DNA of 64,000 bases from Candidatus Tectimicrobiota bacterium (GTDB lineage Bacteria > JACPUC01). Every line of letters begins with the position of its first letter. The first letter of the stretch is position 1. Shown here piece after piece: positions 13,865-50,340 of the stretch. The DNA lies in the NCBI GenBank assembly GCA_016192455.1, contig JACPUC010000026.1, positions 62,001-126,000 of the forward strand. Reading direction: 5' to 3'. A program made the translations under genes and the position numbers. Below the pieces are notes generated by a model. The model was not told the DNA's origin. It worked only from the letters and a program-made list of their open reading frames with translations, and searched no databases.

Positions 13865-14416
13865 ATGTTGCCCACACTTCTCTTCTGGATGACCATCGTC
13901 GCAAGCCTTCTCGTCGGCAACGGCGTCTCCATCACGCCCGCCGCCGCGCAGACCTCCCAGGGTTTGGCGGTCGGCGCGCCGGCGCCCGATTTCACCCGGC
14001 CGCGGAAAGCCCCTGAGAAGCCCTTTACACTCTCGTCCCTCCGCGGCAGCAAGCCGGTGGTGTTGGTTCTCTATCGAGGTCTCTTCTGAGGTGACTGCCG
14101 CATGCAACTCGGCGAGTTGCAGAAGCACCTCCAGCAGTTCCAGGCCGCGGGAGCCGAGCTGATCACCGTCAGCACGGACGACGCCGCAACGGCGGAGGAG
14201 ACGGTCCGGCGCCTGAAGCTGAGCTTCAAGGTCTTTCCGGACCCCCAGCGGCAGATCGTCGAGGCGTACGACGTGCTCCATCCCCAGGAAGGCATCGCCC
14301 GCCCGAGCACCTTCATCATCGACAAGGGGGGAATTATTCGCTGGAAGTACATTGGGCAAATCCCCTCCGATCGGCCCAACATCCAGCTCCTCATCAATCT
14401 CCTCTCCTGGTTGTAA
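13865..14416 (+). CDS. Peroxiredoxin-like (AhpC/TSA, redoxin) selenoprotein, exported
   Basis: Read through the UGA at 14087-14089 as selenocysteine, this is one 183-residue protein. Residues 1-29 form a signal peptide (WMTIVASLLVG ... AAAQ). The thioredoxin-fold core starts GLAVGAPAPDFTRP, and the active site is VVLVLYRGLF-Sec75-GD-Cys78-RMQLGELQ, aligning with YRGxxCPxCRxQLxEL of cysteine relatives: Sec replaces the peroxidatic cysteine and the resolving cysteine remains. The frame continues with LITVSTDDAATAEE and RPSTFIIDKGGIIRWKYIG, both typical. A hairpin downstream of the UGA fits a SECIS. It probably reduces peroxides or thiols outside the cytoplasm. The alternative, a nonsense-mutated pseudogene, is unlikely given the position and two further cases in the window. 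Confidence 0.87.
14090..14129 (+). promoter_or_regulatory. SECIS-like hairpin of the peroxiredoxin-like gene
   Basis: Stem TGCAACTC (14103-14110) pairs perfectly with GAGTTGCA (14114-14121) around loop GGC. A lower stem GGTG/CACC (14090-14093 with 14126-14129) can add to it. The loop begins 22 bases after the last base of the UGA and has G at its first positions, the features described for bacterial SECIS elements. Confidence 0.75.
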
Positions 14417-15113
14417 GGCAAGGTCGAGGGGTAAAACATTCACTTACAGAATTACACAGTACACCATTGTCTCTGCTTCTTCACTCCAAGCGCTTGTTGC
14501 AGAACGGGATAATTTGGGGCGATTTTCTTCAGGACCGAAAATGGTGTGGAAAACGGTTGCAGGGGGACGGCTCACTCGATCAACGCCTCCGTCAACCCGC
14601 GGGAAATCTCTAACCCATTGATATTGAGTGAGTTCATCTACTGCCCAAAGAGCCGTCAACCTAATCTAAGTTTCGCTCCCATCGGCAGTTAGAGGCGCAG
14701 GTGGGGGGGTTTTCCACAGCTTCTCCACAGCCTTGGTGGAAAGTTAGCTAACTCCTCAGCCTCTAAGGCGTTGCACGAGTCCCCGGGGAGCCCTCCTCTT
14801 GACATATCTCCAGTCAGCATCAAGGGGGAGTGGCAAGTCAATGACAGCATACCTTGTAATAACTGGAGAAACCTGGAGCGCCTAAGCGGAGCGCCTAAGC
14901 GCGCGAAGGGTCATTAGAAGGTTACCTCGTTGGTCGCCTTCGCACTTCCCCTGTCCCCATGAAGTGAGTGATGTTTTGGGGTTCTTCCAGGCACATTCCT
15001 CGCGCATCCACGCCCGTTGACGCCGCCAGGCAGCCTCCCCGGAGCCCGCCGCAGGCTTCCTGCGGGTTGCTGCCCTGGCCCGCGGCTGTGCTCCTGGTTT
15101 CAGCAGCGGCAGG
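14417..15113. other. Gene-free lower-GC region with DnaA-box-like motifs
   Basis: About 700 bases without a credible gene. It contains TTTTCCACA at 14710-14718 and TTCTCCACA at 14721-14729 (11 bases, one helical turn, apart), TGTGGAAAA at 14545-14553 on the opposite strand, and a degenerate site near 14735. These resemble the DnaA box TTATCCACA. A 13-bp tandem duplication lies at 14875-14900. An origin of replication is possible; no dnaA, dnaN or parAB is visible nearby to support it. Confidence 0.4.
14875..14900. repeat. Tandem 13-bp duplication
   Basis: The unit GGAGCGCCTAAGC occurs twice without a gap (14875-14887 and 14888-14900). It is noncoding and of unknown function; a protein-binding iteron or slippage product are both possible. 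Confidence 0.8.
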
Positions 15114-16247
15114 CTATTCCTGGCGTGCGGCGAACCGCGCCGGATCGTAGCCGCGCGCCCGCAGCCACTGCGCCGTCGCCCCCAGGATCACCACATCGCA
15201 GCGCTGCAGCTCAGCCGGACGACGCACGCCGAGGAGGAACATGGCGGCCCGCAGCTCGGCGATGATCTCCCGCAGCCGGGCGACCACCGCCTCCGGCCCC
15301 AGCAGGGCCGCCTCCAGCATGGGGATGGCCATGCCGCCGGCGCTGGCCCCGAGGCTCAAGGCGCGCGCCACATCCAGCCCCGAGCGCAACCCTCCCGTGG
15401 CGACGACCGGCAGCCCCACCGCGCTCTCCACGACGGCGACGGGCGTGGGAATGCCCCACTCCCAGAAGGTCTGTCCGAGCTTCTCCAGCAGCGGCTCGTT
15501 TCCCCGCGCCGCGCGGTAGTACTCAACGGCCGAGAAGCTCGTCCCCCCCTGCCCGCCGACATCAATCCCCGCCACGCCGGCCTCCTTCAGCCGCAGGGCG
15601 ACACTGCGGCTGATGCCACCGCCGGTCTCCTTGGCAAGGATCGGCCAGCGCGCGCCGAGGCGCGCCACGGCTTCGAGACACCCCCGCGCGCGGTGATCTC
15701 CTTCAGGCTGCACGACCTCCTGGAGGAAGTTGAGGTGCAGCGCCAGCACATCAGCCTTGATCATCTCCATCACCGCCTGCACGTCCGCATCGGACAGGGC
15801 GGGCTTGCGCTGCGCGATGAGCTGCGGCACGCCGAGGTTGGCGATCACCAGGGGGACGTGGTGCCGCTTCACCACGGCGTAGGTCTGCTGCGTTTCTGGC
15901 CGCTCTAACCCCACCCGCTGACTGCCGACGCCGAAGCCGACGCCCACCGCCGCCGCGCCGTAGGCAAGGTGATCGTTGATCTTCTCCGCCTCCGGGTAGC
16001 CGCCGGTCATCGAGGAGATGATGAGGGGAGCATGCAAGCGTTTCCCGAACAACGTCACCGAGAGGTCGACCTCCTCCAGATCGATCTCCGGCAGCGCGTT
16101 GTGGACGAAGCGCAGGTCATCCCAGTAGTGGTAGCCTCCCTGCACGTCTTCGCCGGCGCAAATCTCCACGTGGTCGCGCTTGCGGCTGCTCCCCTGCGGT
16201 ATCCGCGCCTCGGGACGCTCCGGCCCTGCCGTACGGTCAGTCTTCAT
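15114..16247 (-). CDS. fni: Type 2 isopentenyl-diphosphate delta-isomerase
   Basis: FMN- and NADPH-dependent isomerase interconverting isopentenyl and dimethylallyl diphosphate in isoprenoid synthesis. The 377-residue protein has the family signatures RKRDHVEIC, LIISSMTGG, FGVGSQRVGLE, NLGVPQL, LHLNFLQE, ILAKETGGGIS, GIDVGGQGGTSF and the FMN-binding VVATGGLRSGLDVARAL. The ATG at 16247 has GAGGGA close upstream; a GTG at 16298 overlapping the addA stop is an alternative with no ribosome site. It follows addB-addA on the same strand. Several bacteria of the group use the non-mevalonate route with this enzyme; no mevalonate genes are in view. Confidence 0.95.
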   Translation of the reverse strand: MKTDRTAGPERPEARIPQGSSRKRDHVEICAGEDVQGGYHYWDDLRFVHNALPEIDLEEVDLSVTLFGKRLHAPLIISSMTGGYPEAEKINDHLAYGAAAVGVGFGVGSQRVGLERPETQQTYAVVKRHHVPLVIANLGVPQLIAQRKPALSDADVQAVMEMIKADVLALHLNFLQEVVQPEGDHRARGCLEAVARLGARWPILAKETGGGISRSVALRLKEAGVAGIDVGGQGGTSFSAVEYYRAARGNEPLLEKLGQTFWEWGIPTPVAVVESAVGLPVVATGGLRSGLDVARALSLGASAGGMAIPMLEAALLGPEAVVARLREIIAELRAAMFLLGVRRPAELQRCDVVILGATAQWLRARGYDPARFAARQE

Positions 16248-16294
16248 GGTTCCCTCTACTGGAGCACGTTCTGATCTCGAGTGCCACGGTCCTC

Positions 16295-19200
16295 TCACTG
16301 ACTGCCGCGCACCTCTTCGGAAGGTCTGCCGATCCGCTCCCGCCCGGTGGAGCAGATGAGCTGGTAGGGACAGCTTGGGCAGTGCTCGGGGTGGGGAGAA
16401 AAGTCCGCCGCCTGAAGTCGCTGGAGAAGCTCCTTCGTCTCCGCCTCCACCGCCTCAAGTTCCTTCTCCTCCACGCTGACGGCGACCGTGTGGGAGGTGC
16501 GCAGGAAGTGGAGGAGCGCCGGCGAGGCCACCCTCCCCACGAGGCGCCGCAGCGCCAAGGCGTAGAGCCGTACCTGCAAAGTATGGTGCGCGACGCGGAG
16601 CGGCAGCGTTTGCTGATCGACGTGGTCTGTCTTGAAGTCGATGATCGTTCCGGCCTGACCATCCTGCCAGAACAGCTTGTCGATCTTCCCTTGCAGCCAC
16701 GCCCCGCCCAGGTTCAGGAGGAAGGGAACCTCACTCCGCACGTGGTACGGTGCGCGCAGGCGTTGCGCCAGCTCGCTGCCGGCGAAGCGCCGCGCGAGGG
16801 CCTCGATCTCCTGGCGCAGGGCGGCGCGCCGCGAGCCCAGGAGGGGGGTCCCATCGAGCGCCTGGTCGAGGAGATGGCTCAGGGCCGTTTCGGAGAGATC
16901 ACCCCGCCAGTGCTCGAGGACGTGATGCGCGAGCTGCCCCACCTCGCGGCCGGGAAGCTCAACCTCCTTGTCGAGATCAAAGGCCGCGCCCGGCTGCTGC
17001 TTCCCCCATGCTTCCGGGGCTTCCTCCACGTAGCGGTAGAAGTAGCGTTTCGGGCATTGGCGGTAGGTGTGGAGCTGCGTCACGCTGAAGCAGGGCGCCG
17101 CCCCAGCCGCTTCCACCGGCGCGACGCGGCTGCGCAGCTCCTCCGCCGGTAGGGGAGGAGCCGCAAGCGCGACCGCCTCGCGCAGCGGCAGCGCCGCCGC
17201 CTCGGCGCTCCCGGCGCGCGCCGCGCGCACCACGTAGCTGGCTCTTCCCAGCGCGCGCACCTCTGCGGCGCCGGCAGCCGTGTCCGGCAGGTCGAGCAAC
17301 GCCGTCAGCCAGGACATCCAGCTTGCCGCGCCGCGTGCATTGCCGCCCGCGCCCTCGGCGGCCCCGACGAAGATCAGCCGGTCCCGCGCCCGCGTGCAGG
17401 CAACGTAGAAGAGGCGGCGCCGCTCGGCCTCCTCCTTGCGCGCCTCGCGGGCTAGCGCCACCTGGTACGCCACCGGCTCCGCCTCGCTCTCGACCCCAGC
17501 GCGCAGCCCCAGGCCGCAGCCGGCCCCCGTCCGCGGCTCGTAGTCAACGATGAGCCGCGACTTGCGGGCAGGCGGGCGGCGACTCAGATCGGGCAGGATG
17601 ACGACGGGGAACTCCAGCCCTTTCGCGGCATGCACCGAGAGGAGCTGCACCCCGCCGCCCGCGCGGCTTGCCTCCGGCTCCGGGACCTCGATGCGGCTCT
17701 TCTCGATATGCTCCAGGTAGAGCAGGAAGTCGCACAGGCTCCCCTGTTGGGAAGCCTCGAACGCTTCCGCCAGCTCCAGGACCTTGCGCACCACCACGAC
17801 GCGCTCCTCGCCTCCCGGCAGAGCGCCGAGCACCGCTTCGAGGCCCGAAGCCTCCAACGCCTCGGCCAGCAGCTCCGGCACCGTGGCGCGGTCGCGGCGG
17901 GCCCGCAGCCGCCGCAGCAGGTCGGCGGCAAAGTCGAGGGCGCGGCGATCGGGTGCGTCGATCTCCGCGATCCCCCCGGCCGCCGCCAGCCCCTCGTGCA
18001 GCGTGGCCCGCTGCGTCAGCCAGAAGAGGCCTTCGTCGGAAGCGGCCACCAGGGGCGAGCGCAGCAGCCCCGCCAGGGCGAGGTCATCCTCCTCGAAGGC
18101 GACGCAGCGCAGCAGGCTGACGAGATCGAAGTACTCCTGCCGCTTGAAGAAGTCAGCCCGCACCAGCACCCGGTAGGGGATGCCTTGGCGTTGCAGCGCC
18201 TGCTCATAGATGGGAGCCGAGGTCATGGCCTGGAAGAGCAAGGCCACCTCGCGGTAGGCGACCCCCTCGTCCTCCACCAGGGCCTTGATGCGGCAGGCGA
18301 TCGAGTCGGCCTCCTCGACGCGGAGATCATCCAGAGAGCGCCTCCCCTCCGTCCCGGCGCGGTCCAGGAGGAGCACCTCCACGCAAGGTTCCGCGGAGAT
18401 TCCCGGACGCTTCGGCAGCAGTTGCTCGTGGCCTACCTCGTAAGGCTTCAGGACGCCGACGGGCATGAGCCGCTCAAACAGCTCGTTCAGGAAGTCCAGC
18501 AGGCCGGGAAGGCTGCGGAAGTTCTCCTGCAGGCAATGGGCGGCCACGCCGGAGGCCGGCCCCTGGCGCTGCAAGGCATTGAAAATCTCCACCTCCGCCC
18601 GCCGGAAGCGATAGATCGACTGCTTCGCATCGCCGACGTAGAAGGTCGCGGCGCCGTCCGTGGGGCCAGCCTCTCCTGCAGCCGTCGGGGTCGGCGCCGC
18701 GGTGCCGGCAGGCATCGGGAAAGGATCAGTCGGCGCCGGCCCGCGCGACAGCAAGGAGAGCACCTCGTCCTGCACGTAATCGACATCCTGGAATTCATCC
18801 ACCAGGTAGTAGCGGAACCGGCGCTGCAGCGCTGCTCGAATCCCCTCGTGGCGGCGAAGCAGATCGCGGCTGCGATACAGGAGGTCGTCGAAGTCGAGCT
18901 CGCCGCGGTGTCCCTTCTCCACCGCATAGCGCCGCTGAAGCTGCCGAAACGCTTCCAGGAAGGCGCCGTAAAGCTCGGCCGCCTGCTCATCCACCTCCCC
19001 GAGGTGCAGATCGAGGCGGGCGGAGCTTCGCTTGGTCAACGGCTGCACCAGCTCGCGCAGGCTCACTGCGGCGGCGCGGAAGGCCTCCAGGTCGGCGTCG
19101 CGCCAGTGCTGGCCCTTACCGGAATTTATCCGAAACCCCCGGAACATCGTCATGAGGGCCGCCGCGCTCGCTTCGACATCTGCCGCGCGCTCCACCTCCT

Positions 19201-19966
19201 CGGCGCAATCCAGAATCTTGCGGCGGGCCAGTTCGGCCTTGTCGCCAGGAGCGCCGCCGACGCTCCGCAGCGTGGCAAGCGCGGCCCGCCAGCGCGGCTC
19301 TCGGACGACCTCCGCAAGGAGGCTCGCCTTGTACTCCCGGAGCTGCTCGGCCCAGCGAGCCAGGAGCGCCCCGGCGGGGACACGCGGCTCCTCTCCCAGG
19401 CGCTGCCCAAGCCAGGCCCCTAACCACTCCACCAGATGTCGCTGGTCGAGGCACTCGAGGAGCAACTCTTCGACGGCACGCAACCCCAGGCCCTCGACGA
19501 GCTGCCGGAAGGCGGCATCGTCTCGCCCGAGCAACCACGCCAAGGTCACCTCGCAAACCTCGGCGCGCCGGACCATCGCTTGCAGCTCATCCAGCTCCCG
19601 AAAGTGGGGGTCAACGCCCGCCTCGACGGCATAGTCATGCAGGATGGCGGCGAAGAAGCTGTGGATGGTGGAGATGTGGGCGCCTTCGAGGTCTTCCTCG
19701 TGGCTCCGCCAGAGCCGCCGCTGCGCCGGACGCGTCCGCTGCCGCTCCCGCACCGCCTCGCGGATGCGCTCCGTCATCTCGCTGGCGGCCTTGCGCGTGA
19801 AGGTGATGGCGACGATCTGCCTTACCCGCAGCCCGGCCTCCAGCGCCCACAGGTAGCGCGCGACGAGCACCGCCGTCTTCCCCGTGCCGGCGCCGGCGCT
19901 CACCAGGATACGCGCCGACGACGATTCGATCGCGGCGCGCTGCTGCGACGTGGGAACGAAGTTCAC
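16295..19966 (-). CDS. addA: AddA-like helicase-nuclease subunit (UvrD/Rep family, PD-(D/E)XK)
   Basis: Helicase-nuclease subunit for processing of double-strand DNA ends, 1223 residues. Superfamily 1A motifs: SQQRAAIESSSARILVSAGA with GAGTGKT (25-31), TFTRKAASEMTERI, LDFDDLL, YYLVDEFQDVDYVQ, VGDAKQSIYRFR, LLSVHAAKGLEFPVVILPDL and FYVACTRARDRL. The C-terminal RecB-like nuclease has GKIDKLFW and TIIDFKTDH. Unusually for AddA, the nuclease carries an iron-sulfur pattern: a cysteine in RQCPKRYFYRY and CPSCPYQLIC (C-x2-C-x5-C). It starts with GTG overlapping the addB stop (GTGA, 19963-19966), so the pair is translationally coupled. Confidence 0.95.
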   Translation of the reverse strand: MNFVPTSQQRAAIESSSARILVSAGAGTGKTAVLVARYLWALEAGLRVRQIVAITFTRKAASEMTERIREAVRERQRTRPAQRRLWRSHEEDLEGAHISTIHSFFAAILHDYAVEAGVDPHFRELDELQAMVRRAEVCEVTLAWLLGRDDAAFRQLVEGLGLRAVEELLLECLDQRHLVEWLGAWLGQRLGEEPRVPAGALLARWAEQLREYKASLLAEVVREPRWRAALATLRSVGGAPGDKAELARRKILDCAEEVERAADVEASAAALMTMFRGFRINSGKGQHWRDADLEAFRAAAVSLRELVQPLTKRSSARLDLHLGEVDEQAAELYGAFLEAFRQLQRRYAVEKGHRGELDFDDLLYRSRDLLRRHEGIRAALQRRFRYYLVDEFQDVDYVQDEVLSLLSRGPAPTDPFPMPAGTAAPTPTAAGEAGPTDGAATFYVGDAKQSIYRFRRAEVEIFNALQRQGPASGVAAHCLQENFRSLPGLLDFLNELFERLMPVGVLKPYEVGHEQLLPKRPGISAEPCVEVLLLDRAGTEGRRSLDDLRVEEADSIACRIKALVEDEGVAYREVALLFQAMTSAPIYEQALQRQGIPYRVLVRADFFKRQEYFDLVSLLRCVAFEEDDLALAGLLRSPLVAASDEGLFWLTQRATLHEGLAAAGGIAEIDAPDRRALDFAADLLRRLRARRDRATVPELLAEALEASGLEAVLGALPGGEERVVVVRKVLELAEAFEASQQGSLCDFLLYLEHIEKSRIEVPEPEASRAGGGVQLLSVHAAKGLEFPVVILPDLSRRPPARKSRLIVDYEPRTGAGCGLGLRAGVESEAEPVAYQVALAREARKEEAERRRLFYVACTRARDRLIFVGAAEGAGGNARGAASWMSWLTALLDLPDTAAGAAEVRALGRASYVVRAARAGSAEAAALPLREAVALAAPPLPAEELRSRVAPVEAAGAAPCFSVTQLHTYRQCPKRYFYRYVEEAPEAWGKQQPGAAFDLDKEVELPGREVGQLAHHVLEHWRGDLSETALSHLLDQALDGTPLLGSRRAALRQEIEALARRFAGSELAQRLRAPYHVRSEVPFLLNLGGAWLQGKIDKLFWQDGQAGTIIDFKTDHVDQQTLPLRVAHHTLQVRLYALALRRLVGRVASPALLHFLRTSHTVAVSVEEKELEAVEAETKELLQRLQAADFSPHPEHCPSCPYQLICSTGRERIGRPSEEVRGSQ

Positions 19967-22900
19967 GGTGCTGCCTCGTCAGTCGTCGCCTCGTAGGCGC
20001 CCTCCCTCCCCTCCTCTTGCAGCTCGGTTTCGCTCCGCACCGAGTTGATCCGGCAGGCGGGGCGGAAGGGACAGCTCTCTTCGCAGTCTATCGGCGCCAA
20101 GCTGAAGTCGCCCTCGCGGAGCCGCGCCAGGAAGCGCGCGATATGCCTCCGCGTGCCCTCCTCGAGCTCCTCCCGCCATTGCTCCGACGCATCCCTGGGA
20201 GGCAGGACGTACTTCATGCGCTGCTTCTCATTCCTGAGATTCCTGAGCAGTACGTAGCCAGCCTGGAGAGGAGGCGCCTCCGGCAGCAGGCTGTGCACGG
20301 CCCAGACGTAGAGCGGCAACTGGAAGGTGATCCCCTGCTCAATGAAGTTTCCGCTGTCGCGAACCTGGCTGCGCTTGTAGTCGAGGACGATCGAGCCGCG
20401 CAGCTCGGGCGCACCCGCTGCATTTCGTTCGTAGACGTAGTCCACGCGGTCGATGACGCCGCGCAGGTGCACGGTCGTCGGCCCGCATGCGAAGCTCAGC
20501 GCTCCGCCCCGCCGTGGTGCGCCGGGGAGATGCAGGCCGGGGAGGGCCTCGGGACGACGAGAGGGATCCCCGGCATCATCCAGCGCCCCCCCCGCTCGCC
20601 CCGCCGCCACCCGGGCGGCAACGTGCCGCCCCGCCTCGCGGCGAGGGTCATGCCGCGGGGCTCGGCGCGGCGCGCCGAAGGGAAGCTCGAAGTAGGCCGG
20701 CAGGAGGAATCTCCCAGCCTTTTCAGCGCAGCGCGTCGCGTCGGCCTCCAGGAAGTCGGTGAGCACCTTCAGGAGCTCGCGCTGCTCGGCCTCCCAGCGA
20801 CCGGCATCGACGGGGAGCCACCCACGGGCAAAGCGCCGGAAGCTCTCCTCGGCGATCCGCCGCAATCGCGCGGCAGCGGCGGCGAGGTCCTCGGGGCGAA
20901 GCGGCAGGCGGCCCGCCGCGGCCTCCGCGGTGTAGAACTCCTCCAGGATGCCGTGCGCCAGGTTCCCCTCCTCGAGGGGTTGCAGAGGCCGCGCCCGGCT
21001 CTCGGCTGGCTTGAGGCGCAGGCGCTGGTTGGCGAAGTAGCGGAACGGGCACTTGCCATAGTCCGTCAGCGCCGTGGCGTTCAGGAAGCACTCGCCGTCC
21101 AGCTCCGCCGCCAGGGTGTCGCGCACCGCCGCGGCGCCGAGTCGTCCCGACCAGCGGCTGTGCTCATCGGCGCGCAGGCGCCGCTGCTCGACGCGCAGCG
21201 CCGCGAGGAGGCGCAGCAGCGTGGCATCCTCGGCGCTCTCCAGGAGGGGGAACGGCAGGGAGCGCGCTGTGCCGGGAGCGCTGACCGTCTTCGGCAGCAG
21301 CTCACGGAGCCGCCTCAGCCCCGGCGCCTCGCCCAGCTCCTCGGCGCGCGCGGCAGCGAGGCGCGCGAAGGCGGCGAGGCGCAGGTCGCCGAAGCGCCAG
21401 ACCTGCCGCGCCGGGAGCAGGACGCTTGCCGCGGCGCGGTGCTCGCGCGCCGGGGGGCTTACCTCGACGAGGCGCTCCACCTCGGCGAGGAAGGGTGAAC
21501 GACCGCTCTGGGGATCGGCCTCGTCCTCGCACGTATAGCCGAGGAGGAGCCGGCGGCTCGGGCGCGTGGCGCAGAGGTAGAAGAGGAGGCGCTCCTCTTG
21601 CTGGCGCGTCGTGCTGAGCTCGAGCCGATCATCGCGCAGGGGTGTTCCCGGAAGCGGGGCGAGGCGGCGGTTGAGCCGCGCCCGCGCCGCATCGTTCAGG
21701 AGCGGCGACTGGCGGGGCCGCGGCGGGAACGCACCCGACTCCACGTCGCCCAGGAGCAGCACGTCGAACTGACGCTGGCGCGCCGTGTTCGCATCGCAGA
21801 GCAGGATCGCCCGCTCCGCCGACTGCTGGCGCTTCTGCCACGGGAAGCGGCTCTCCTCCAGGCGTTCCTCGAGGTACGCGGCGAACGCCGCAAGTTCAAT
21901 CGTGGCGCTGCCGCCCAGGCCGCCGAAGGCGGCCGCCGCGGCGCGCACTTCCTGGCGCCAGCGATGCAGCGCGCGCGCGTCGCGAGCGCGCAGGTCCTCC
22001 TGCTCCGAGGCGGCGATCGCCTCCTCAACACCCAGGCCGTCGAGAAAGGCCACGAGCTTCTCCGCCACGTCGCCGGCCTCGCTCCGCCGGGGAACCGCCT
22101 CGCCACGGGCGAAGAGCGCCTCGAAGCGGGAGATCGCCTCCTGGTGCCGCTGGAGCTGTGCCGCCGGCCCTTCGGCTGCGGCACGCGCCTCGTACGCTCC
22201 CTCCTCAGCGAGGTCGTCCTCCCGCGCCGCCACCTCCCCCCGGCAGCATCCTTCGAGGTAGGCGCGGCGCGCCGACAGCCGCTGGCGCCAGGAGGCCAAC
22301 CCGCCGGTGACGCCGCAGGCGACCACGGCGGCGCGCAGCTCCACAAACGCCGCGCCAGACCGCCGCGGGGGGGGCGGTGCGTCAGGGGTGCCCGCGGCGG
22401 AGCCGCCAGGCCGCGGCTCGGGCACCGCCTCGTCCAGACCATAGTACGGACTGGTCATCAGATCGAGCACCGAGGGAGCCGGCCAGTCCTCGACGAGCAG
22501 CTTCAGGGCGCGCTGGCAGAAGCGCACCACCGGCTGGGCGGCGAGCGGCTCGGGGTCGGAGCAGGTGAACGGCAGGCCATGCGCCTCGAGGGCGCGCATG
22601 AGGCCGCGGCGGTGCCGATCGAGCTGGCGGGCCACCAGGCCGATTCCGCCCGGTTCGCAGACACCCTGCCGAATGAGGCGCTTGCAGGCAGCCGCCAGAA
22701 CCGCGTGCGCGGCGGCCTCGTTGCCGCCGCTCAGCACCTCGAGGCCGCCGGCGGCGGCGACCTTCGTCTCCTCGGCGCCGTCCTGCGCCGGTCGGAAGAG
22801 ATCGTGCTGCAAGACGCGCAGCGCCCCGGGAAGGTCCGTCGTCTCCGCCGCCCGCAGCTCGACGACCTCGTCGGCCAGCCCGCGCAGGCGCCGAGCCAGC

Positions 22901-23646: not shown

Positions 23647-23725
23647 GGAGGAGCACCCTGGTTGCGAAGCGCCGCAGAACCCAAGGCGAGGTGGCGAAAA
23701 CGGTCGCGCCCGGCAGGCTTCGGCG

Positions 23726-35378: not shown

Positions 35379-36002
35379 ATGAGCGCGAGGCGCGTCATCA
35401 CCCTGCGCGAGTATACCGACTACCTCTGACCCTGGTGCAACAACTCAGCAGTTCGGCTGCAGAAGATCGCCCAGGAATTCGGGGAGCGGGTTGACGTGGA
35501 GCCGCGCAGCTTCCTGCTGCGTCCGGAGCCGGATGCCACTGCCACCTTCACCTCGTACCGGGACATGCACTGGCGGCAGGCCCAAGCCCAGGAAGAGGCC
35601 GGGGAGTTCACCATCCCCAGCATCGGCACCCCTCTCCCCAGCGGCAGCTTCCCGGGGCAAGAGGCGGCAAAGGCCGCCAAACACCAGGGAACTGCGCTGT
35701 TCCGGGCCTACCATGCGCGCCTCTTTAAGGCGTTCTTCCAGGAGCATCGCAACCTCACCGAGCGCGCCGTTCTTGAAGAGCTGGCCGCCGAGGTCGGCCT
35801 TGATCTCGAACTTTTCCGCGCCGATCTGCAATCGGGCGCCTGCCGCGAAGAGGTCATCGCCGACCACCTCGAAGCCGTCAGCCGCTATGGGATCACCGGA
35901 ATCCCCACCGTCATCGTTGACGGCAAAGAGGCCATCGTCGGAGCCGTGCCGACAGAGGTGTATCGCAGCGTCATTACGCGCCTCCTCGAGGCGCAGCCCT
36001 GA
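35379..36002 (+). CDS. DsbA-family (FrnE-like) thiol oxidoreductase selenoprotein
   Basis: Read through the UGA at 35427-35429 as selenocysteine, this is a single 207-residue protein of the DsbA/FrnE-like 2-hydroxychromene-2-carboxylate isomerase-type fold. It starts MSARRVITLREYTDYL, then Sec17-PW-Cys20-NNSAVRLQK: a Sec-x-x-Cys active site where cysteine homologues have CPWC. The frame then continues normally through GERVDVEPRSFLLRPEP, an all-helical insertion (HARLFKAFFQEHRNLTERAV) and the cis-proline region GITGIPTVIVDGKEAIVGA. GAGG lies 7 bases before the ATG, well placed. No signal peptide is evident, so it acts in the cytoplasm. A conventional call would start at 35496 and lose the active site. 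Confidence 0.93.
35431..35475 (+). promoter_or_regulatory. SECIS-like hairpin of the DsbA-family gene
   Basis: CAGC (35446-35449) pairs with GCTG (35456-35459) around AGTTCG, or GCAG (35448-35451) with CTGC (35457-35460). CCTGG (35431-35435) and CCAGG (35471-35475) can close a lower stem. In the first pairing the loop starts 21 bases after the UGA and carries G in its second position, as required of a bacterial SECIS. Confidence 0.6.
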
Positions 36003-40522: not shown

Positions 40523-41602
40523 ATGAGCGCAATGAAACGGAGAAGCCATCGAACGGCGAGTGACAACCGGCGTCGCGGCGGGGTGGGCGGCGCGCCGGCG
40601 ACGCTGCTGTTCGTCTGCCTGCTGATCGCCCTGGTGCTGGGGTTGGCGAGGCGTGCGCTGGCGGAACCCATCACCATCCGCGTCGCCGGCGGCGTCGTTC
40701 CCGGCGTCATGACGCCCGTGGTGATGGAGCTGAAGCAGCAGCTCACACATTACGGCAAGTCGTACGTCACCGAGGTCTCCTACTTCCGCGGCTCCTCGCC
40801 GCAGATCCAGGCGCTGGCGGCCAAGCAGCTCGATCTCGGTTACCTCGCCTTCGGCAGCTTCCCCTCGGCGATCCTCAATGCGAAGCTCGACCTCGAAATC
40901 GTCGCCGACTTCATCCAGGAGGGGCCCGAGGGACACTTCTCCGCCGTGCGCGCCGTGCGGGCGGATTCCGGCATCACGAAGGTGGAGGACCTGCGCGGTA
41001 AGAGGATCGGCATCATCGCCTTCGGCACGGGGAACGACCTCGGCAACCGCGCCATGCTGAAGCGTCACGGCCTCGAGTTCGGCAAGGACTACACGATGGT
41101 CGAGGTGCAGCCGCCCAACATGGGAGCCATGCTGCGGGAGGGGAAGATCGATCTCGCCTGGCTGACGACGCCCTTCTGGTTCATCGAGGAGCGCAAGGGG
41201 GGCCTGCGCAAGCTCTTTGACGGCGTCGATGCCATGGGGCCGACGCAGGTGCTGGTGATGGTCGGGCGCAAAGAGTTCCTCGCAGCCAACAAGGCGGCCG
41301 TGCAGGATTTCTTCGAGGACTACCTGCGCGGGCTGCGCTACGCGCTCGATCCGAAGAACCGCGAGGAGCTGCTCGAACTCGTGTCGCGGCTCGGCAAGCG
41401 CCCCAAGGAAGCGTTCGCCTCCTGGGTGTTCACCAAGCGCGACTACTACCGTGATCGCGACGGCATCCCCAACATCAAAGCCTTGCAGGCGAACATCGAC
41501 TTGCTGACGGAGGTGGGCCTCATCAAGACGAAGTTCGACGTCAGCCGGTACGTCAACCTCTCCTACATCAAGGAGGCGGCCGGGCGGCTGGGGAAGCCGT
41601 GA
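40523..41602 (+). CDS. ABC substrate-binding protein, SsuA/NMT1-like (copy 2)
   Basis: A 359-residue exported binding protein. The N-terminus is a charged stretch followed by a long hydrophobic signal (TLLFVCLLIALVLGLARRAL), and the mature part begins EPITIRVAGGVVPG. Family motifs include DLRGKRIGIIAFGTGNDLG and PPNMGAMLREGKIDLAWLTT. GAGG lies 6 bases before the ATG at 40523. Unlike the operon at the window start, no ABC permease or ATPase adjoins it, so transport partners must be elsewhere. An amidohydrolase gene follows 189 bases downstream. Confidence 0.9.
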   Translation: MSAMKRRSHRTASDNRRRGGVGGAPATLLFVCLLIALVLGLARRALAEPITIRVAGGVVPGVMTPVVMELKQQLTHYGKSYVTEVSYFRGSSPQIQALAAKQLDLGYLAFGSFPSAILNAKLDLEIVADFIQEGPEGHFSAVRAVRADSGITKVEDLRGKRIGIIAFGTGNDLGNRAMLKRHGLEFGKDYTMVEVQPPNMGAMLREGKIDLAWLTTPFWFIEERKGGLRKLFDGVDAMGPTQVLVMVGRKEFLAANKAAVQDFFEDYLRGLRYALDPKNREELLELVSRLGKRPKEAFASWVFTKRDYYRDRDGIPNIKALQANIDLLTEVGLIKTKFDVSRYVNLSYIKEAAGRLGKP

Positions 41603-41791
41603 CGCGCGGGCCGCGGGGAGACAGGGCGGCGTGTCGGGGGTGAGCCTGAGGGGGAGCTGCGTCTCGATGAGTCTGCTGCGGCGCCAGCGGCGCCCGAAGG
41701 CAACGCCTGGAGCGGAAGCGCGGCGCGCCGGGATCAACGCCTGGGCCGTCTCGGCGGCACGCCGCCGCCCCGAGCCGAAGGGGGATTTCGT

Positions 41792-43528: not shown

Positions 43529-43547
43529 CGGAAGGCGAGGAAACGGG

Positions 43548-43958
43548 ATGGAGCTACATCGAGCGCGGGAGTTCCTGAGAGCGAACCATCGCGCCGTCTT
43601 GACGACGCGGCGGCGCGACGGCGGGGTGCAGTCCTCGCCGGTGGTGGCGGGGGTGGATGCCGAGGGGCGGGCCATCGTCAGCAGCCGCGAGACCGCCTAC
43701 AAGACGCGCAACCTGCGCCGCGATCCGCGCGCCACGCTGTGCGTCTTCAACGACGCCTTCCTCGGGGCGTGGCTGCAAGTGGACGGCACGGCGGAGGTGG
43801 TCTCCCTTCCCGAGGCGATGGAACTCCTCGTCGACTACTACCGGCGGCTGAAGGGGGAGCACCCCGATTGGCAGGACTACCGGCGGGCGATGGAGCGGGA
43901 AGGGCGCGTCCTCCTGCGCATCACCATGGAGCGCGCCGGCCCCGACCGCAGCGGGTGA
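43548..43958 (+). CDS. PPOX-class (pyridoxamine-phosphate-oxidase-like) flavin-binding protein
   Basis: A 136-residue split-barrel protein of the F420/FMN-dependent PPOX group. It begins ELHRAREFLRANHRAVLTTR, followed by GGVQSSPVVAGVDAEGRAIV and YKTRNLRRDPRATLCVFND, all characteristic. Members often reduce or bind F420 or FMN. It starts 19 bases after the amidohydrolase stop, so it is co-transcribed. Which cofactor it uses cannot be told. Confidence 0.88.
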   Translation: MELHRAREFLRANHRAVLTTRRRDGGVQSSPVVAGVDAEGRAIVSSRETAYKTRNLRRDPRATLCVFNDAFLGAWLQVDGTAEVVSLPEAMELLVDYYRRLKGEHPDWQDYRRAMEREGRVLLRITMERAGPDRSG

Positions 43959-44025
43959 AGGCTGGTTTCGTCTCTGGAACAGGAGCCGGGCGGGGGAACC
44001 GTGTCCCCCCGCGCCTCCCATTAAG

Positions 44026-44046
44026 GCGAGCTGCTACGCAGCTCGC
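44026..44046. repeat. Perfect hairpin between convergent genes
   Basis: GCGAGCTGC and GCAGCTCGC pair perfectly around TAC. It lies between the stop of the PPOX gene and the stop of the nitrilase gene, so it could terminate both, though no T-run follows. Confidence 0.55.
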
Positions 44047-44185
44047 GGGAGTAAGGGAGATGCAACCTTGAGACGGCCCTGTACACCTTCCTCCTATGAC
44101 AGGTCGCAGGCCCTCACGGGGTAGCAACCTCCTCCGAACCCACCCGCCTGTCAGCGCCTCTCCTGAATGAACGCCTGAGATCACC

Positions 44186-45244
44186 TCAACCCTTCGGCCG
44201 CTTCCAGACGCCCCGCTCCTGCAGCCGGCGGGTGCTCTGGCGGTGAATCTCCTGGCGACCGGCGCGGCGCGGCGGGGGCTCGTGCAAAAAGAGGTTCTTG
44301 GGGAAGATCGGCTGCTCGTAGATGACCTTGTACTGTTCGGTGCGCAGGTCCTTCAGCCAATTGCCGAAAAGCGACTTGTCGCGGAAATCGCGCAGCGCCT
44401 CGATATCGACCATGGCGCTGCAGAAGGAGTCCGTCCCCGCGATGTGATGGGAGATCACTTCCCCCTTGTAGTCGCACATGATGGTGTTGCCGCCGGTGAT
44501 GTCCCAGCCGTGCGGCGAGTCGGCGGTGATCATGCCGAGGGCCGGGTTGGGAGCGATGACGTAGCAGGTGTTGTCGAGGGCCCGCGTGCGCGCCCGCAGC
44601 TCGGACCAGCCGCGCCCCGCCCATGGCTCCACGTAGGTCGGCATGTAGATCACCTCGGCGCCGTTCATGGCCAGGCCGCGCGCCGTCTCCGGGAAGCTCT
44701 GATCCATGCAGATGATGGTGCCGATGCGGCCGATCTCCGTGTCGCAGACGGGGTAGAAGGAGTCGAGGGAGTAGCCGAACTTCTCGATCCAGAGGTCCCA
44801 CACGTCGTGGGGCACGGTGCTCGGCTCGTTCGGGTAGACCTGCAGCTTGTGGTACTTGTGGACGATCTTGCCCTTCGGGTCGATGACGAAGGCGAGGTTG
44901 AAGTAGCGATCCTCGATGATCTCCGCCTCGACGGCGCGAATCTGCCCGGCGATGAAGACGTTCAGCTCGCGGGCGATGTCGGCCAGGTAGTCCGTCTCGG
45001 GTCCGGGCACGGTGGTCATCAGCTCCTTGCAGGCGCGCACGTGGTCCCAGTCAAACATCGAGTCCGGGAACCCCTGGATGGCGCCCTCGGCGAAGCAGAT
45101 GAGCTTCACGGGGTACTCGAGGCTGGCCAGCCAGTAACTGGCGCGGATGCCCTGGGCCAGGTGATCGAGGTTGCGCTTCATGTCGTCCCGACACTGGATG
45201 TTGAGGAACGTGCTCTGCACGGCAACAGCAGCGTAGCGGTCCAT
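44186..45244 (-). CDS. Nitrilase/carbon-nitrogen hydrolase family protein
   Basis: A 352-residue C-N hydrolase. The catalytic triad is visible: Glu in LICFAEGAIQG, Lys in YHKLQVYPNEPS and Cys in IGTIICMDQSFPE. The C-terminal tail of about 60 residues after the fold is arginine-rich. The family hydrolyses nitriles, amides or carbamoyl compounds; the substrate is unknown. The start at 45244 is weakly supported by a ribosome site. An inverted repeat lies upstream at 45297-45316, where a regulator could bind. Confidence 0.9.
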   Translation of the reverse strand: MDRYAAVAVQSTFLNIQCRDDMKRNLDHLAQGIRASYWLASLEYPVKLICFAEGAIQGFPDSMFDWDHVRACKELMTTVPGPETDYLADIARELNVFIAGQIRAVEAEIIEDRYFNLAFVIDPKGKIVHKYHKLQVYPNEPSTVPHDVWDLWIEKFGYSLDSFYPVCDTEIGRIGTIICMDQSFPETARGLAMNGAEVIYMPTYVEPWAGRGWSELRARTRALDNTCYVIAPNPALGMITADSPHGWDITGGNTIMCDYKGEVISHHIAGTDSFCSAMVDIEALRDFRDKSLFGNWLKDLRTEQYKVIYEQPIFPKNLFLHEPPPRRAGRQEIHRQSTRRLQERGVWKRPKG

Positions 45245-45296
45245 AGTGCTTCCCCCATCGAGCCAAGGTGGAAAACTCAGGCGCCCGGCGGCGCCG

Positions 45297-45316
45297 CGTT
45301 GAGGTTCACCTCAACG
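45297..45316. promoter_or_regulatory. Operator-like inverted repeat upstream of the nitrilase gene
   Basis: CGTTGAGGT and ACCTCAACG are perfect inverted halves separated by TC, 53-72 bases upstream of the nitrilase start. A repressor or activator site is possible; a transcript hairpin is the alternative. Confidence 0.35.
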
Positions 45317-45470
45317 AAGCCGGTACTTGCGGCAGGCTCGAGCGCTCGCAAGGGGCCCGCGCGCCGCGGCGGCACTGAGCCGGCACTGGCTCACCCAGCG
45401 CCTCCCCCTGGAGGTCAGCCTCCCCGTGTAGTTGGAGATCACCGTACTGGCAGCGGGGTTCTAAAAAGGA

Positions 45471-47828
45471 TCAACCTTTTCCGTATCGCCATTGTATTTC
45501 ACCGCACTGACATTGCACCCACTCCGCGCTCTCAGCGTCGGCCAACCAAACTCCCCTGCGGCACGACGAACATATGAACGACTCAAGGGCTTTTTCACAG
45601 GCGTCAATCACCTTAACCGCTTCCTGGCGAACTAAATCGAGTGTGTGAGTTCCACGGTTGGCCCAGGACACAAGCAGCCTATCCGCTTTGTCAAGCGCGC
45701 CCGTCGCATCCGAATGGGCTACGTACTCCTGTCCCACCTTTTTCCGGAAGCACTTCTTCCCGTCCGCCACGAAGCGATCGAGAAAGTCGTGCGCTATACG
45801 TTTGTCATTCTTTTCGGCGCGAAGGTAAGGCAATCTGATTCGAAGGCGCTCAGCGATCAGTGCGAGCTCGACGTCCATGATTTTCCTGGCATCAGTTCCC
45901 GCCGAGTCAGGACGATCATTGAGCTGGGCACGAGCGTCGTCGAAGGTCGTCGTTTTGTGCGACCATCGAATACCAACCGTCGGCGTCTCATAGGGCAACA
46001 GGGTCTTAAAGGTCCAACTGTTGCCGTGAAGCTGCTGCCTAAGCTCTGTGTACCACTCACGATCATGTGTCAAGATCACCACCTGCCGCTTGGCGAACTC
46101 CTTCTCCAGCAGCTCTCTAATCATGCCTCTGTGATTCCGATCGAGACTAATAACCACATCATCGAGGAAAAGGGGTCTATCCATCTTGGCTTCGCGCTTA
46201 GCCATCGCTAAGAAGATACAGAGACCGAGGCTGTTTCTATAGCCCTCCGATAAGGTAAGCCTTGGCGATTCCTGTTCATGGCCGTGGAAGTTCAAGCCAA
46301 TATCGATGGCTTTATCCACATCATTCGGAAAGTACAGGCGCACATTTTCGATTGGTTCTCCAGGGTGCAGGATAGACCACATTGATTGGATATCTACAGA
46401 GATATCCTCAATCACCTTTTGTGACCGAAGTCTGATCTCCTCACGGACACCCTTTTCAAGCGAACTAACAAAATCTCTCAGAGCTTCAGCACGAGCCACT
46501 GCTGCCGCTTGCCCCTTACCCTCGATCACAGCTTTGCCCACCTCGACGGTCTGCCGGTCGGTCGAGAGCTGGCGGACATCGGGAGGCGCGTCCTCCCACG
46601 CCTTCCTTGCTAAATTGATCACCGGAAGCAGATTGGCCTCAAGTGTCTTGAGGTCTGCATCGTTGCAAGAGGTTCGAAGCACGTCCACGTTGAAGCTGTC
46701 CAAAAACGCAATCCGGTCAGCGAGCGGACCCTTGGTAATTTCGTCGCGCCAGGCCTTGATCGCGGGCTTTGAAAGGTTGGACTGGAGCGATTTACAGGTG
46801 TCACAGAGAGTCCCAACTTCTGCTTTGCGGGTATTGTAAACGTTGATGATTTTATGAAGCCGCTCGCGCTCCGACTTCAAGTGTGCCTGAAGGTTCTCCA
46901 ACGGAATGGCCCGTCCGCAGGCGGGACAATTGACTTCTTTTGCTTCTCCCAATTTGTCGAGGAACGTGACGGTCGTCTGCAACACCTCCAATTTCTCAGC
47001 GATCAGAGGATCAACAGAGTCAGCAAACTTCATGCTAACCGAGCGCACGGCATCAATGCAATGCTTAAGGTTAATTTCGGCTACATCTTGGAGTGCGAAG
47101 TTCCTTCTCTGGTCGGCCAAGGAGCGGTCGATCCGCGTCTCCAGCTCCGCCTCCAACTCTTTGCAGCGAGATAGAGGGTCCTTCGTGGTGGCCTCGTTAG
47201 CGCAATACCTCGCGTGGAGTGTCGCTATCTTGCTGGCGATCTGGTCATCGTTGTCCGCACCAAATGTCGCCGCACGACTGTTCTTTATCCTCCCAAGCGC
47301 AACCTTAGTGTCCTCAAACTTCGACTGTTGCGCTATCATCTTTGAGAGCTGCCGGAGGTTCTCGGCAGCAACCTCCATTTGGTGAAGTCCGAGGAGCGGA
47401 AGGAGGGTGGAGTACTTGTCTCCCTTAGTGTCGTGAATGAAGGCCGCAACCTCGTCCTGCCTCAGTACCGTGCGGTGGTATTCCCAAGTGGGCATCGCGA
47501 CGACCTCCGCACCGGAGCTTTTCGGAGAGCCGTCCGGCTTTATCTGGACCGTGAGCTCCGCGTCGTTTGTGAATGTGATCCTTAGTTCTGTCTTCCGGTC
47601 CCTCGGCTTATGTGTATTAGGTATGGCCTTCTCCTGGTGTTTCCCGCTGTACTCGTGTGAGAGATGACCAATCCTGCCATTGTGAAGAACGTACTCAACA
47701 GCATCGACGAAAGACGATTTTCCCGCTCCATTGTTTCCGTACACGACCATTGACTTGCTGTCGGGATCCAACGCCACTGGGTCGGCGGCACCCCGGAACC
47801 ACGACAGTTGGATGGACTTGATTCTCAC
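45471..47828 (-). CDS. SMC/Rad50-like ATPase with zinc-binding cysteines
   Basis: A 785-residue ABC-type ATPase of the RecF/Rad50/SMC group. Walker A is VVYGNNGAGKSSFVDAVEY, the signature is RLTLSEGYRNSLG, Walker B and D-loop are FLDDVVISLDRNHRG, and the H-loop VVILTHDREW. A helical region separates the halves and holds CPACGR and CDTCKS, possible zinc-hook or finger cysteines. After the ATPase, about 190 residues end in CSSCRRGVW ... CQCGE, a likely zinc finger. It starts with GTG overlapping the upstream small gene (GTGA). Lower GC than the neighbours suggests transfer. It may act in DNA repair or phage defence. Confidence 0.88.
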   Translation of the reverse strand: MRIKSIQLSWFRGAADPVALDPDSKSMVVYGNNGAGKSSFVDAVEYVLHNGRIGHLSHEYSGKHQEKAIPNTHKPRDRKTELRITFTNDAELTVQIKPDGSPKSSGAEVVAMPTWEYHRTVLRQDEVAAFIHDTKGDKYSTLLPLLGLHQMEVAAENLRQLSKMIAQQSKFEDTKVALGRIKNSRAATFGADNDDQIASKIATLHARYCANEATTKDPLSRCKELEAELETRIDRSLADQRRNFALQDVAEINLKHCIDAVRSVSMKFADSVDPLIAEKLEVLQTTVTFLDKLGEAKEVNCPACGRAIPLENLQAHLKSERERLHKIINVYNTRKAEVGTLCDTCKSLQSNLSKPAIKAWRDEITKGPLADRIAFLDSFNVDVLRTSCNDADLKTLEANLLPVINLARKAWEDAPPDVRQLSTDRQTVEVGKAVIEGKGQAAAVARAEALRDFVSSLEKGVREEIRLRSQKVIEDISVDIQSMWSILHPGEPIENVRLYFPNDVDKAIDIGLNFHGHEQESPRLTLSEGYRNSLGLCIFLAMAKREAKMDRPLFLDDVVISLDRNHRGMIRELLEKEFAKRQVVILTHDREWYTELRQQLHGNSWTFKTLLPYETPTVGIRWSHKTTTFDDARAQLNDRPDSAGTDARKIMDVELALIAERLRIRLPYLRAEKNDKRIAHDFLDRFVADGKKCFRKKVGQEYVAHSDATGALDKADRLLVSWANRGTHTLDLVRQEAVKVIDACEKALESFICSSCRRGVWLADAESAEWVQCQCGEIQWRYGKG

Positions 47829-48037
47829 TCGTCCGCCTCCACCTTTGGCGGGACAGGCGCCATATCTTTGAGGAGTAAGTTGGCTAATTCAGTCAAATCA
47901 GTGGGACGAAGCTGACGCTTTCCGAGTTCATCTCTGATAAGCTCCCTCATCCGAATAGCAACGGCATCTGTCACGGTTGGATAGGCTTTCTGCGCATCGC
48001 CAACGCGCTTGGATATCCAGTTTTCCTCTCCTTCCAC
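47825..48037 (-). CDS. Small partner protein upstream of the SMC-like ATPase
   Basis: A 70-residue mostly helical acidic protein (MEGEENWISKRVGDAQKAYP ... NLLLKDMAPVPPKVEADE). The GTG at 48037 has GGGAGG 8 bases upstream; a GTG at 48079 would add 14 residues. Its stop overlaps the ATPase start by four bases, so the two are translationally coupled and probably act together. No family recognised; the length and coupling resemble small accessory proteins of defence modules. Confidence 0.7.
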   Translation of the reverse strand: MEGEENWISKRVGDAQKAYPTVTDAVAIRMRELIRDELGKRQLRPTDLTELANLLLKDMAPVPPKVEADE

Positions 48038-48135
48038 TGCCGTCGCCTCCCTGTTAGTCAAGCTGCCAGGAAAAGCCACATAGCATTCTCTAGCTTCTTG
48101 CTAAACACGGTCCTCACTGCGCAGCGCCAGCGTCA

Positions 48136-49263
48136 TCAGCTCCAGCCGTAGAAGCGCTTGGCGTTCGTGCAGAGAATCTTCTCCACCGCCACGGCGGAGA
48201 GGTCCTGCCGGGCGCGCAGCTCCTTCACGGCGTAGCGGTCGCGGTCGCCATGCGGCATGTCGGAGGCGAAGAGAATTTGGTCTTCGCCGACAAGCTGCAA
48301 TGCTTGCGGCAGGAGGTCGTCCTCGACCTCCGTGTTGAAGAAGAGGCGCCCGCCGGCGACGTACTCGGCGGCGCGCTCCGCCGCCACCGGCTTGGGGAGC
48401 GGCAGGAACTTCGCGATGGCGTTGAGGAAGGTGCGGCGATGATCGAGCCGGTGGGTCATGAAGTGAATCCATTCGCAGCCGGCCTCCATGAAGCCGATGC
48501 GCAGGTTCGGGAAGCGATCCAGGAGGTCGCTGGTGAGGATGGCCGCGAAGCCCATGAGGACCGGGAAGAGGAAGGCGATGACGGTCGAGGTGAGGAGATT
48601 GGGGGCCAAGCTGGAGAGTTGCGGGCTGGCCCAGCCGACGTGCAGCGCCACGGGCAGGTCCTGCGCCGCGACCTCTTCCCAGAACGGCAGCAGGCGCGGG
48701 TGGCTGAGCATGTCGTTGCCCGCCAGGCCCAGGAGCATGATGCCGCTGGCGTGCAGCTCCGTCTTCAGCCGACGCACCTCCGCCACCGCCGCGGAAACGT
48801 TATCCAGCGGCATCACCCCCACCCAGCCGAAACGCTCGTCGCCGCCGCGCAGGTCGCACATCCAGTTGTTGTAGGCGCGGCAGAGGGCGGCCTGGAAGTC
48901 GGGATCGGCGGTGAGGGGATAGGCGAGGAAGAGGGTGGGGTAGAGAACCTGCACGTCGATGTTCTCGGCCTGCATGTCGGCGAAGCGCGCCGCGCGGTCG
49001 CGCAGCTCGAGGCTCTCCAGACTCTCCGGCTTGCCGCGGGTGAAGGGCGTCAGCTTGCCCTGGTAGTGGGCCGGCGTGCCGAGGTTCGAGGCGCCGGGAC
49101 CATGCCGGCGCGGCAGGGTCACATCATCGATGAGCCAAAACGCCTGCTCGAACGGTCCCGGAATGACCATGGGCCGTCGATTGCGGAAGCGCGGCTCCAG
49201 GTACGCGTCGCTGAAGGTTGCCTCGCACTCCTCGATGTGCGCGTCGGCGTCGATGACTTTCAT
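48136..49263 (-). CDS. Amidohydrolase family 2 (metal-dependent TIM-barrel hydrolase/decarboxylase)
   Basis: A 375-residue amidohydrolase-2 enzyme, the group of aminocarboxymuconate-semialdehyde and gamma-resorcylate decarboxylases. The N-terminus KVIDADAHIEE has the metal motif, VALHVGWASPQ and MEAGCEWIHFMTHRLDH carry further ligands, and FASDMPHGD the final Asp. GGAGG lies 8 bases before the start at 49263. It stands upstream of the transferred ATPase pair and downstream of the AhpD-like and UbiD genes on the same strand, suggesting aromatic or cyclic acid breakdown. Confidence 0.92.
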   Translation of the reverse strand: MKVIDADAHIEECEATFSDAYLEPRFRNRRPMVIPGPFEQAFWLIDDVTLPRRHGPGASNLGTPAHYQGKLTPFTRGKPESLESLELRDRAARFADMQAENIDVQVLYPTLFLAYPLTADPDFQAALCRAYNNWMCDLRGGDERFGWVGVMPLDNVSAAVAEVRRLKTELHASGIMLLGLAGNDMLSHPRLLPFWEEVAAQDLPVALHVGWASPQLSSLAPNLLTSTVIAFLFPVLMGFAAILTSDLLDRFPNLRIGFMEAGCEWIHFMTHRLDHRRTFLNAIAKFLPLPKPVAAERAAEYVAGGRLFFNTEVEDDLLPQALQLVGEDQILFASDMPHGDRDRYAVKELRARQDLSAVAVEKILCTNAKRFYGWS

Positions 49264-49539
49264 TCCATTGCCTCCCCGCGCCCAGGAGCGCGCGGCTGCC
49301 ACCGGGCCCTCCCTGCGCCGCCGGCCGCGCGGAGAGGCTTCTCCCCCCGCGCCCGGCCGGCCTCCCCGCCGCACCGACGGCCCCCCGCGCTGCCGCCGGC
49401 CGCGCCGGAGGCCATCAGGGTTATTCCTGGAACGTGAAATGACCAAAAAGACGGTCCGCTACCTTGCCTAAGCCGCAACATCCCACCTGGCGCGCGCTTT
49501 TGGACCATTTCCCGAGGAGCTGCGTTCGCCTGGTTGTCC

Positions 49540-50340
49540 CTAAGTGACATCTGGAAAGTCCGGTTCAAGTTGCAGGACGTCGGCGATCTTCGTGTAGGTG
49601 TTAAAGAGTTGCGCCGTCTGCACCACCTCCCTGATGCCTTTCTCGGTGACGCCGAGGCGCAGGGCCTGGGTGCGGTGCAGATCAAGACCGAAGGGGGAGC
49701 GCGCCGCCACCGCGACTCCCAGGGCGATGCATTCCTTGAACTTGCGCCTCAGGACGCGATCGGCGAAGGCGGCCTGCACCGTGTTCCAAGTGTCGCGCAG
49801 GTAGCCCGGATCGCTTGCCAGGTAGCGATAGACCGCCGGCACGTCCGTCGTGCCGTAGTAGGCATTGATGTCGGCAAAGATCGGCAGCACGCCGCGATCC
49901 AGCTCGTCATCGGCGGGGAGCGGCACAAGCGGCTGACGCGCCCCGCCGGCCGCCGCGAAGGGGAGCGGCAGCACCAGGCTCTCCGCGAGCGACAGGAGGC
50001 CGTTCGTGGCCCCCGTGACGAAGGCGGTCTCGTACCAGACGGCGTCGTTCTCCATGCCCTGCAGCTTCCCGGCTGCGGTGTGGAAGTTCGTTCAGTAGCG
50101 ACAGGAATTCATGCCGCTGACGGCGGCGGCGATGATCTCCTTCTCGGCGCGCCTCAGCTCGCCATCCGGCATGGCGCGCTTCATGGCGCGGCCGTTGTGA
50201 TCGCGGAACTCCGGCAGCGCCAGGAGCACGCGGCCCATCTTCGGGGTGAAGTCGATCTTGAACCAGGCGCGCGAGGCGGCGAAGAGCTTCTGCTCCTCCG
50301 CCGAGTACTCCTCCGCGCCGCGGATACGTACGGTGGCCAT
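49540..50340 (-). CDS. AhpD-like (carboxymuconolactone decarboxylase family) selenoprotein
   Basis: Read through the UGA at 50094-50092 as selenocysteine, this is one 266-residue protein. The first CMD domain has EKEIIAAAVSGMNSCRY-Sec-TNFH: Cys80-x-x-Sec83-x-x-x-His87, exactly the CxxCxxxH active site of AhpD with the second cysteine replaced. Translation continues HTAAGKLQGMENDAVWYE without interruption. A second, degenerate CMD domain follows (ALGVAVAARSPFGLDLH lacks both cysteines). GGGAG lies 5 bases before the ATG. AhpD reduces peroxiredoxin AhpC in known species; here it lies beside UbiD and amidohydrolase genes, and a decarboxylation-linked redox role is also possible. Two separate calls (50092-50340 and 49540-50055) would result without Sec. 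Confidence 0.93.
50061..50076 (-). promoter_or_regulatory. SECIS-like hairpin of the AhpD-like gene
   Basis: On the minus strand GCAGC (50076-50072) pairs with GCTGC (50065-50061) around CGGGAA. The loop begins 21 bases after the UGA and has G at its second position. Confidence 0.65.

Follow-up and report, generated by a model that had tools for sequence, protein, structure and literature searches.

Three thiol-redox genes of a Candidatus Tectimicrobiota bacterium carry UGA at a catalytic thiol codon and are predicted to encode selenoproteins

A window of 64,000 nucleotides from a Candidatus Tectimicrobiota bacterium (positions 62,001 to 126,000 of contig JACPUC010000026.1, assembly GCA_016192455.1) contains three genes of different thiol-redox families, each with an in-frame UGA at a catalytic thiol position. 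The peroxiredoxin-like (Prx-like; AhpC-TSA) coding sequence lies at 13865..14416 on the plus strand, with its UGA at 14087..14089, which falls on the catalytic position in the alignment with homologs; translated with TGA as selenocysteine (Sec, U), it has the active site UGDC (LVLYRGLF-U-GDC). The DsbA-like coding sequence, at 35379..36002 on the plus strand, carries UGA at 35427..35429, aligned with U or C of its homologs, and has the active site UPWC (YTDYL-U-PWC). On the minus strand at 49540..50340 is a tandem-domain CMD/AhpD-like coding sequence, where UGA (50092..50094) stands at the C-terminal position of CxxU; its active site, CRYU (SCRY-U-TNFH), belongs to the first domain, and the second domain has neither CxxC nor CxxU. 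Positions and frames agree with the original prediction made from the DNA alone, and the partner cysteine it described is found in all three genes.

Each frame stays open through its UGA, and by a codon-usage scan the coding signal is present before and after all three codons; the same scan, applied de novo to the window, found only these three genes convincing as read-through genes. The read-through proteins are clear members of their families, with scores of 112 bits against PF00578 for the Prx-like protein (cut-off 26), 87.8 bits against PF01323 (DSBA) for the DsbA-like protein (cut-off 25.6), and 69.5 bits against PF02627 (CMD) for the AhpD-like protein (gathering cut-off 23). Finer assignment placed the AhpD-like protein below the TIGR01926 cut-off and also below that of NF041238, an AhpD-related CFYUT equivalog (32.5 bits, curated cut-off 175). 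Among NCBIfam models the Prx-like protein, which begins with a probable signal or membrane segment, resembles SelL/ResA-type thiol:disulfide oxidoreductases more closely than AhpC.

The argument is carried by the position of the UGA codon and by its conservation. An alignment-based scan of named genomes found the AhpD-like site as CxYU in 28/28 full-length homologs with a readable site, a count that is not biased toward UGA because the scan motifs excluded the UGA site. These homologs come mostly from Rokubacteria/Methylomirabilota, with one from Tectomicrobia, two from Dehalococcoidia, and one from an unclassified bacterium; the count excludes one named locus too short at the site and three short matches to distant sequences. 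A single-protein AhpD scan of the named genomes returned zero homologs. A paralog on contig C7 of the same genome agrees at the site, as do genomes G084 and G097, which duplicate two of the named genomes, and no cysteine form of this subfamily was found among its full-length homologs. At the aligned codon of the Prx-like gene, U is present in all 18 homologs that align over the motif; 11 more sequences in the alignment belong to Prx types with the reactive residue elsewhere and fall outside this count. DsbA-like homologs have U in 24/28 cases and C in 4/28. Three close cysteine forms (L238, L242, and L243) are nested within the Sec forms on a tree with two changes, which points to a possible Sec-to-Cys change, a kind of event that a 2026 review calls rare. 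Because of long branches, the position of the window gene on this tree is uncertain.

Hairpins downstream of UGA were judged by our version of the published rule for the bacterial Sec insertion sequence (bSECIS), namely, a position 16 to 37 nucleotides (nt) past the codon, G in the first two loop positions, and a minimum free energy of at most -7.5 kcal/mol. The putative Prx-like element (14103..14121, plus strand) has an 8-bp stem, UGCAACUC/GAGUUGCA, with a GGC loop starting 21 nt past UGA, and the AhpD-like bSECIS (50061..50076, minus strand) reads GCAGC-CGGGAA-GCUGC, with its loop from 20 nt past UGA; both passed, at -12.5 and -11.9 kcal/mol, respectively. A putative atypical element in the DsbA-like gene (35446..35460, plus strand) has the loop AGUUCG from 20 nt past UGA, with GUU at 21 nt, matching its distance in homologs. 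The loops thus start 21, 20, and 20 nt past UGA, near the 21 to 22 nt that had been claimed as similar spacing, but spacing proved a weak test and one of the three hairpins is itself weak. Similar spacing is minor evidence because such hairpins are common in this GC-rich genome: at the same energy threshold the share of codons followed by one is 43% for random codons, 48% for Cys codons, and 56% for ordinary UGA stops, compared with 85% for 26 Sec codons (P = 6e-4 versus Cys codons and P = 0.02 versus stops, Mann-Whitney test). With a background of 43 to 56%, generic bSECIS detection was rejected as proof of Sec. An Rfam scan of the window returned zero matches and is uninformative for bSECIS.

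Comparison among homologs is far more telling for the AhpD-like hairpin, which is conserved in 32 homologs. Its codons across the loop, GCC GGG AAG, are identical in 30/30 sequences, and mean codon entropy in the loop is 0.25 versus 0.91 in other conserved columns (P = 1.8e-4). GGG is invariant in the loop, whereas GGC is preferred at most other glycine columns, and in the paralog one A-U pair of the stem has been swapped for U-A, a compensatory change. The hairpin is thus frozen at synonymous sites, and we regard these comparative data as the decisive RNA evidence. An inverted repeat, GCUCCAAGGxCUUGGAGC, is common to many Prx homologs. In many DsbA homologs the hairpin is GGCG-GUU-CGCC, with GUU at the position it occupies in the window gene.

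The original prediction went further and proposed that the AhpD-like protein might reduce the Prx-like protein in one connected network. Mycobacterial AhpD reduces AhpC. In addition, Prx-like and AhpD-like selenoprotein genes are reported to share operons in some metagenomes (PMC13188914). In the window, however, the genes are 15 to 21 kb apart on two strands with nothing linking them, amid neighbors of unrelated function (CheZ, gamma-glutamyltranspeptidase, amidohydrolase, UbiD, and hydantoinase), and the affinity of the Prx-like protein for the SelL/ResA type rather than AhpC also speaks against a partnership. On gene placement and family affinity we therefore consider the network unlikely, and this part of the prediction is unsupported.

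It is much less probable still that the three genes decayed independently into pseudogenes, or contain sequencing errors, in which a cysteine TGC or TGT became TGA. Each UGA is one substitution from a Cys codon and the sequence is a metagenome assembly, but the codon is UGA at the same site in independent genomes at the frequencies given above, coding signal persists past it, and selection acts on the AhpD hairpin at synonymous sites. For the AhpD-like gene, conservation refutes this explanation outright.

The Sec genes that the original prediction had proposed to locate are all present in this metagenome-assembled genome (MAG; 4.46 Mb, 31 contigs, 88% complete). A profile search found selB above its curated cut-off; directly upstream, and overlapping it, is a SelA-like open reading frame (ORF) assigned by sequence, without a profile search. 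The genome also has a tRNA-Sec with anticodon TCA (UCA) and a selD with one in-frame TGA (KVAGUAAKL), so that SelD is predicted to be a selenoprotein itself. UGA is the commonest ordinary stop, ending 137/265 clean ORFs; the training set of the coding-potential model was filtered by GC3 and purine content against antisense ORFs. Genome-wide reassignment of UGA to tryptophan or cysteine, which would account for in-frame UGA in many genes, is refuted because UGA is in regular use as a stop, and with the in-frame UGAs placed at thiol codons and tRNA-Sec and sel genes present, we give it a negligible chance, in agreement with the prediction that UGA is not read as tryptophan.

We conclude, with a probability of about 0.96, that the three are genuine selenoprotein genes with Sec at the active site. 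The case rests on the position of UGA and its conservation. Some observations weigh against it: the DsbA-like hairpin is weak, at -5.4 kcal/mol, and misses the textbook threshold; in a genome as GC-rich as this one, generic hairpin rules are not very specific; the sel genes lie on contigs other than that of the window and are tied to it by binning only; and we infer Sec insertion itself, like the catalytic roles, from sequence. If the genes are decoded as proposed, SelA would turn serine on tRNA-Sec(UCA) into Sec with selenophosphate from SelD, and SelB, bound to a hairpin with its loop 20 to 21 nt downstream, would bring Sec-tRNA to the in-frame UGA. By the established chemistry of their families, all three proteins are most likely thiol oxidoreductases that attack through Sec. 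The Prx-like and DsbA-like proteins would have Sec at the N-terminal end of UxxC, and the AhpD-like protein would have it at the C-terminal end of CxxU, where a selenenylsulfide with the neighboring cysteine would be expected. Sec would serve as a reactive thiol substitute in peroxide, disulfide, or hydroperoxide chemistry.

The window genes are part of a larger set. Four whole-genome family searches, combined with a de novo scan that covered 31% of the genome (1.40 Mb), gave at least 25 selenoprotein genes with 28 Sec codons. The family searches found UGA at the catalytic thiol codon in 8 of 13 AhpC-TSA matches and 2 of 3 DSBA genes, and one SelD gene with UGA. In the CMD family they found CxxU in four genes and CxxC in none. 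To these the scan added two CMD genes, GrdA, two OsmC-like genes, a DUF1573-like gene, a MetE-like gene, a double-Sec zinc ribbon, a double-Sec MerP-like gene, and a glutaredoxin (Grx). Most of its 62 raw candidates were discarded by eye, either as an ordinary UGA stop joined to a same-frame neighboring gene or as low-scoring noise, and it is not fully sensitive, having missed a Prx-like gene on contig C30 inside a sampled stretch. The whole genome perhaps encodes 35 to 45 selenoproteins, a loose extrapolation because the sample was partly chosen for holding known cases.

Broad use of Sec in thiol oxidoreductases, as originally proposed, is thus well supported by the many families with Sec members in this genome. 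Whether its Sec content is unusually rich depends on the comparison. Bacteria with at least 6 selenoprotein genes have been defined as selenoprotein rich (PMC5029168), a number far exceeded by the at least 25 predicted here. Larger selenoproteomes of 57 and 63 have been published for the Olavius algarvensis Delta 1 symbiont and a Methylomirabilota MAG, respectively (PMC13188914); those genomes resemble ours in having many Sec thiol oxidoreductases and differ in number. In the Rokubacteria we searched, too, AhpC-TSA and DsbA genes with UGA are numerous. The genome is therefore rich, but "unusually" rich is too strong, as larger sets are known elsewhere and the Rokubacteria searched commonly have these Sec families too.

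Several other loci of the genome are of note. A second DsbA-like selenoprotein (L196, approximately 8472-9155, plus strand, UGA at 8541) has UPYA, with Sec lacking a resolving cysteine, and its homolog in genome G094 also has UPYA. A CMD-family selenoprotein (L161:10405-10998, plus strand, UGA at 10648) has SSHU, without the partner cysteine of CxxU. At L133:7854-12747 on the minus strand, TlpA/ResA-like (TWUQSC) and DUF1573-like (GCUPP) selenoprotein genes flank cytochrome c maturation-like genes, CcmF/CcmH-like by sequence. GrdA, the glycine/sarcosine/betaine reductase selenoprotein A (L118:14814-15287, minus strand), scores above both Pfam and NCBIfam cut-offs, and its gene adjoins one resembling a reductase component C subunit.

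Two further candidates may take Sec beyond thiol redox sites. On contig C27, at about 116.5 to 119.3 kb (L191:6478-9280), a same-strand run of less than 3 kb has four selenoproteins and six Sec codons; its genes are those of a MerT-like membrane protein (by sequence), a Grx (SPT-U-RPC), a LysW-like zinc ribbon, a MerP-like protein, a further small protein, and a TlpA-like protein (WATWUPYC). The zinc ribbon has two Sec residues (CPGU and CANU), and the MerP-like protein beside this Grx-ribbon pair has UGTU, a UxxU motif, and scores above the NF041115 cut-off. The ribbon had zero matches among NCBIfam selenoprotein models and no row in a 2026 selenoprotein table. Because the Grx-ribbon pair recurs in another phylum, in the same order and with UxxC and the same two CxxU motifs (G031 contig C245; L297, approximately 1600-2150), the double-CxxU ribbon is probably a real selenoprotein family outside the 2026 catalogue, which holds 119 families.

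The second candidate is a MetE-like gene on contig C22 (L178:12006-13301, minus strand, UGA at 12398) with HLURGN. The cysteine of the corresponding HxC is presumably a zinc ligand, by homology with MetE. HxCRGN is found in the solved structure 1ypx and in all MetE homologs with the motif, so Sec at the same site in homologs was rejected; their TGAs lie elsewhere. A hairpin, AGGCCAGCC-GGU-GGCUGGCCU, follows 19 nt past UGA. Of the Cys codons sampled across the genome, just 0.9% have one as stable, and homologs with cysteine lack such a hairpin. This UGA may encode Sec at a predicted zinc ligand or be a sequencing error in a single genome. Literature searches found no report of Sec in MetE-like or zinc-ribbon proteins. 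On balance, we lean slightly toward the view that this genome has uncatalogued Sec families with Sec at predicted zinc or metal ligands, namely, the MetE-like HxU and the LysW-like ribbon with two CxxU motifs beside a Sec Grx in two phyla.

The three window genes themselves are new members of known, catalogued selenoprotein families; what may be novel are the zinc-ligand cases found elsewhere in the genome. The Prx-like protein shares its family, UxxC motif, and first-position Sec with the Prx-like thiol:disulfide oxidoreductase selenoproteins (PF00578, UxxC/UxxU; PMC13188914 Table 1), yet it has UGDC where most homologs found have UPFC, and its identity to them is only 31 to 42%. The DsbA-like protein matches DsbA-like form 1 (PF01323, UxxC; PMC13188914 Table 1) in family and UPWC, with no difference in kind, on a long branch with about 40% identity to its nearest homologs. 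Family and motif likewise ally the AhpD-like protein with CMD-like and AhpD-like/AhpD-related selenoproteins (PF02627, TIGR01926, NF041238; CxxU; PMC13188914 Table 1), from which it differs in its tandem domains with the motif in the first only, its subthreshold TIGR01926 and NF041238 scores, and the lack of a Cys form among full-length homologs.

Among the comparison genomes listed by a search for relatives, zero share the phylum, all being related at the level of domain only, including Rokubacterium G084, whose matches equal those of the AR20 isolate, and rpoB, sought for taxonomic placement, had no match in the MAG. A lineage with no same-phylum relatives among the compared genomes thus joins the selenoprotein-rich bacteria, and annotation that takes every UGA as a stop would cut short no fewer than 25 of its genes. 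With its frozen hairpin, the AhpD-like subfamily offers a clean natural data set for SelB recognition in high-GC genomes. If the metal-site candidates are real, Sec would be used in this genome for metal binding besides redox chemistry, and the two candidate families, if they are borne out, would add predicted zinc sites to the redox catalysis in which Sec takes part.

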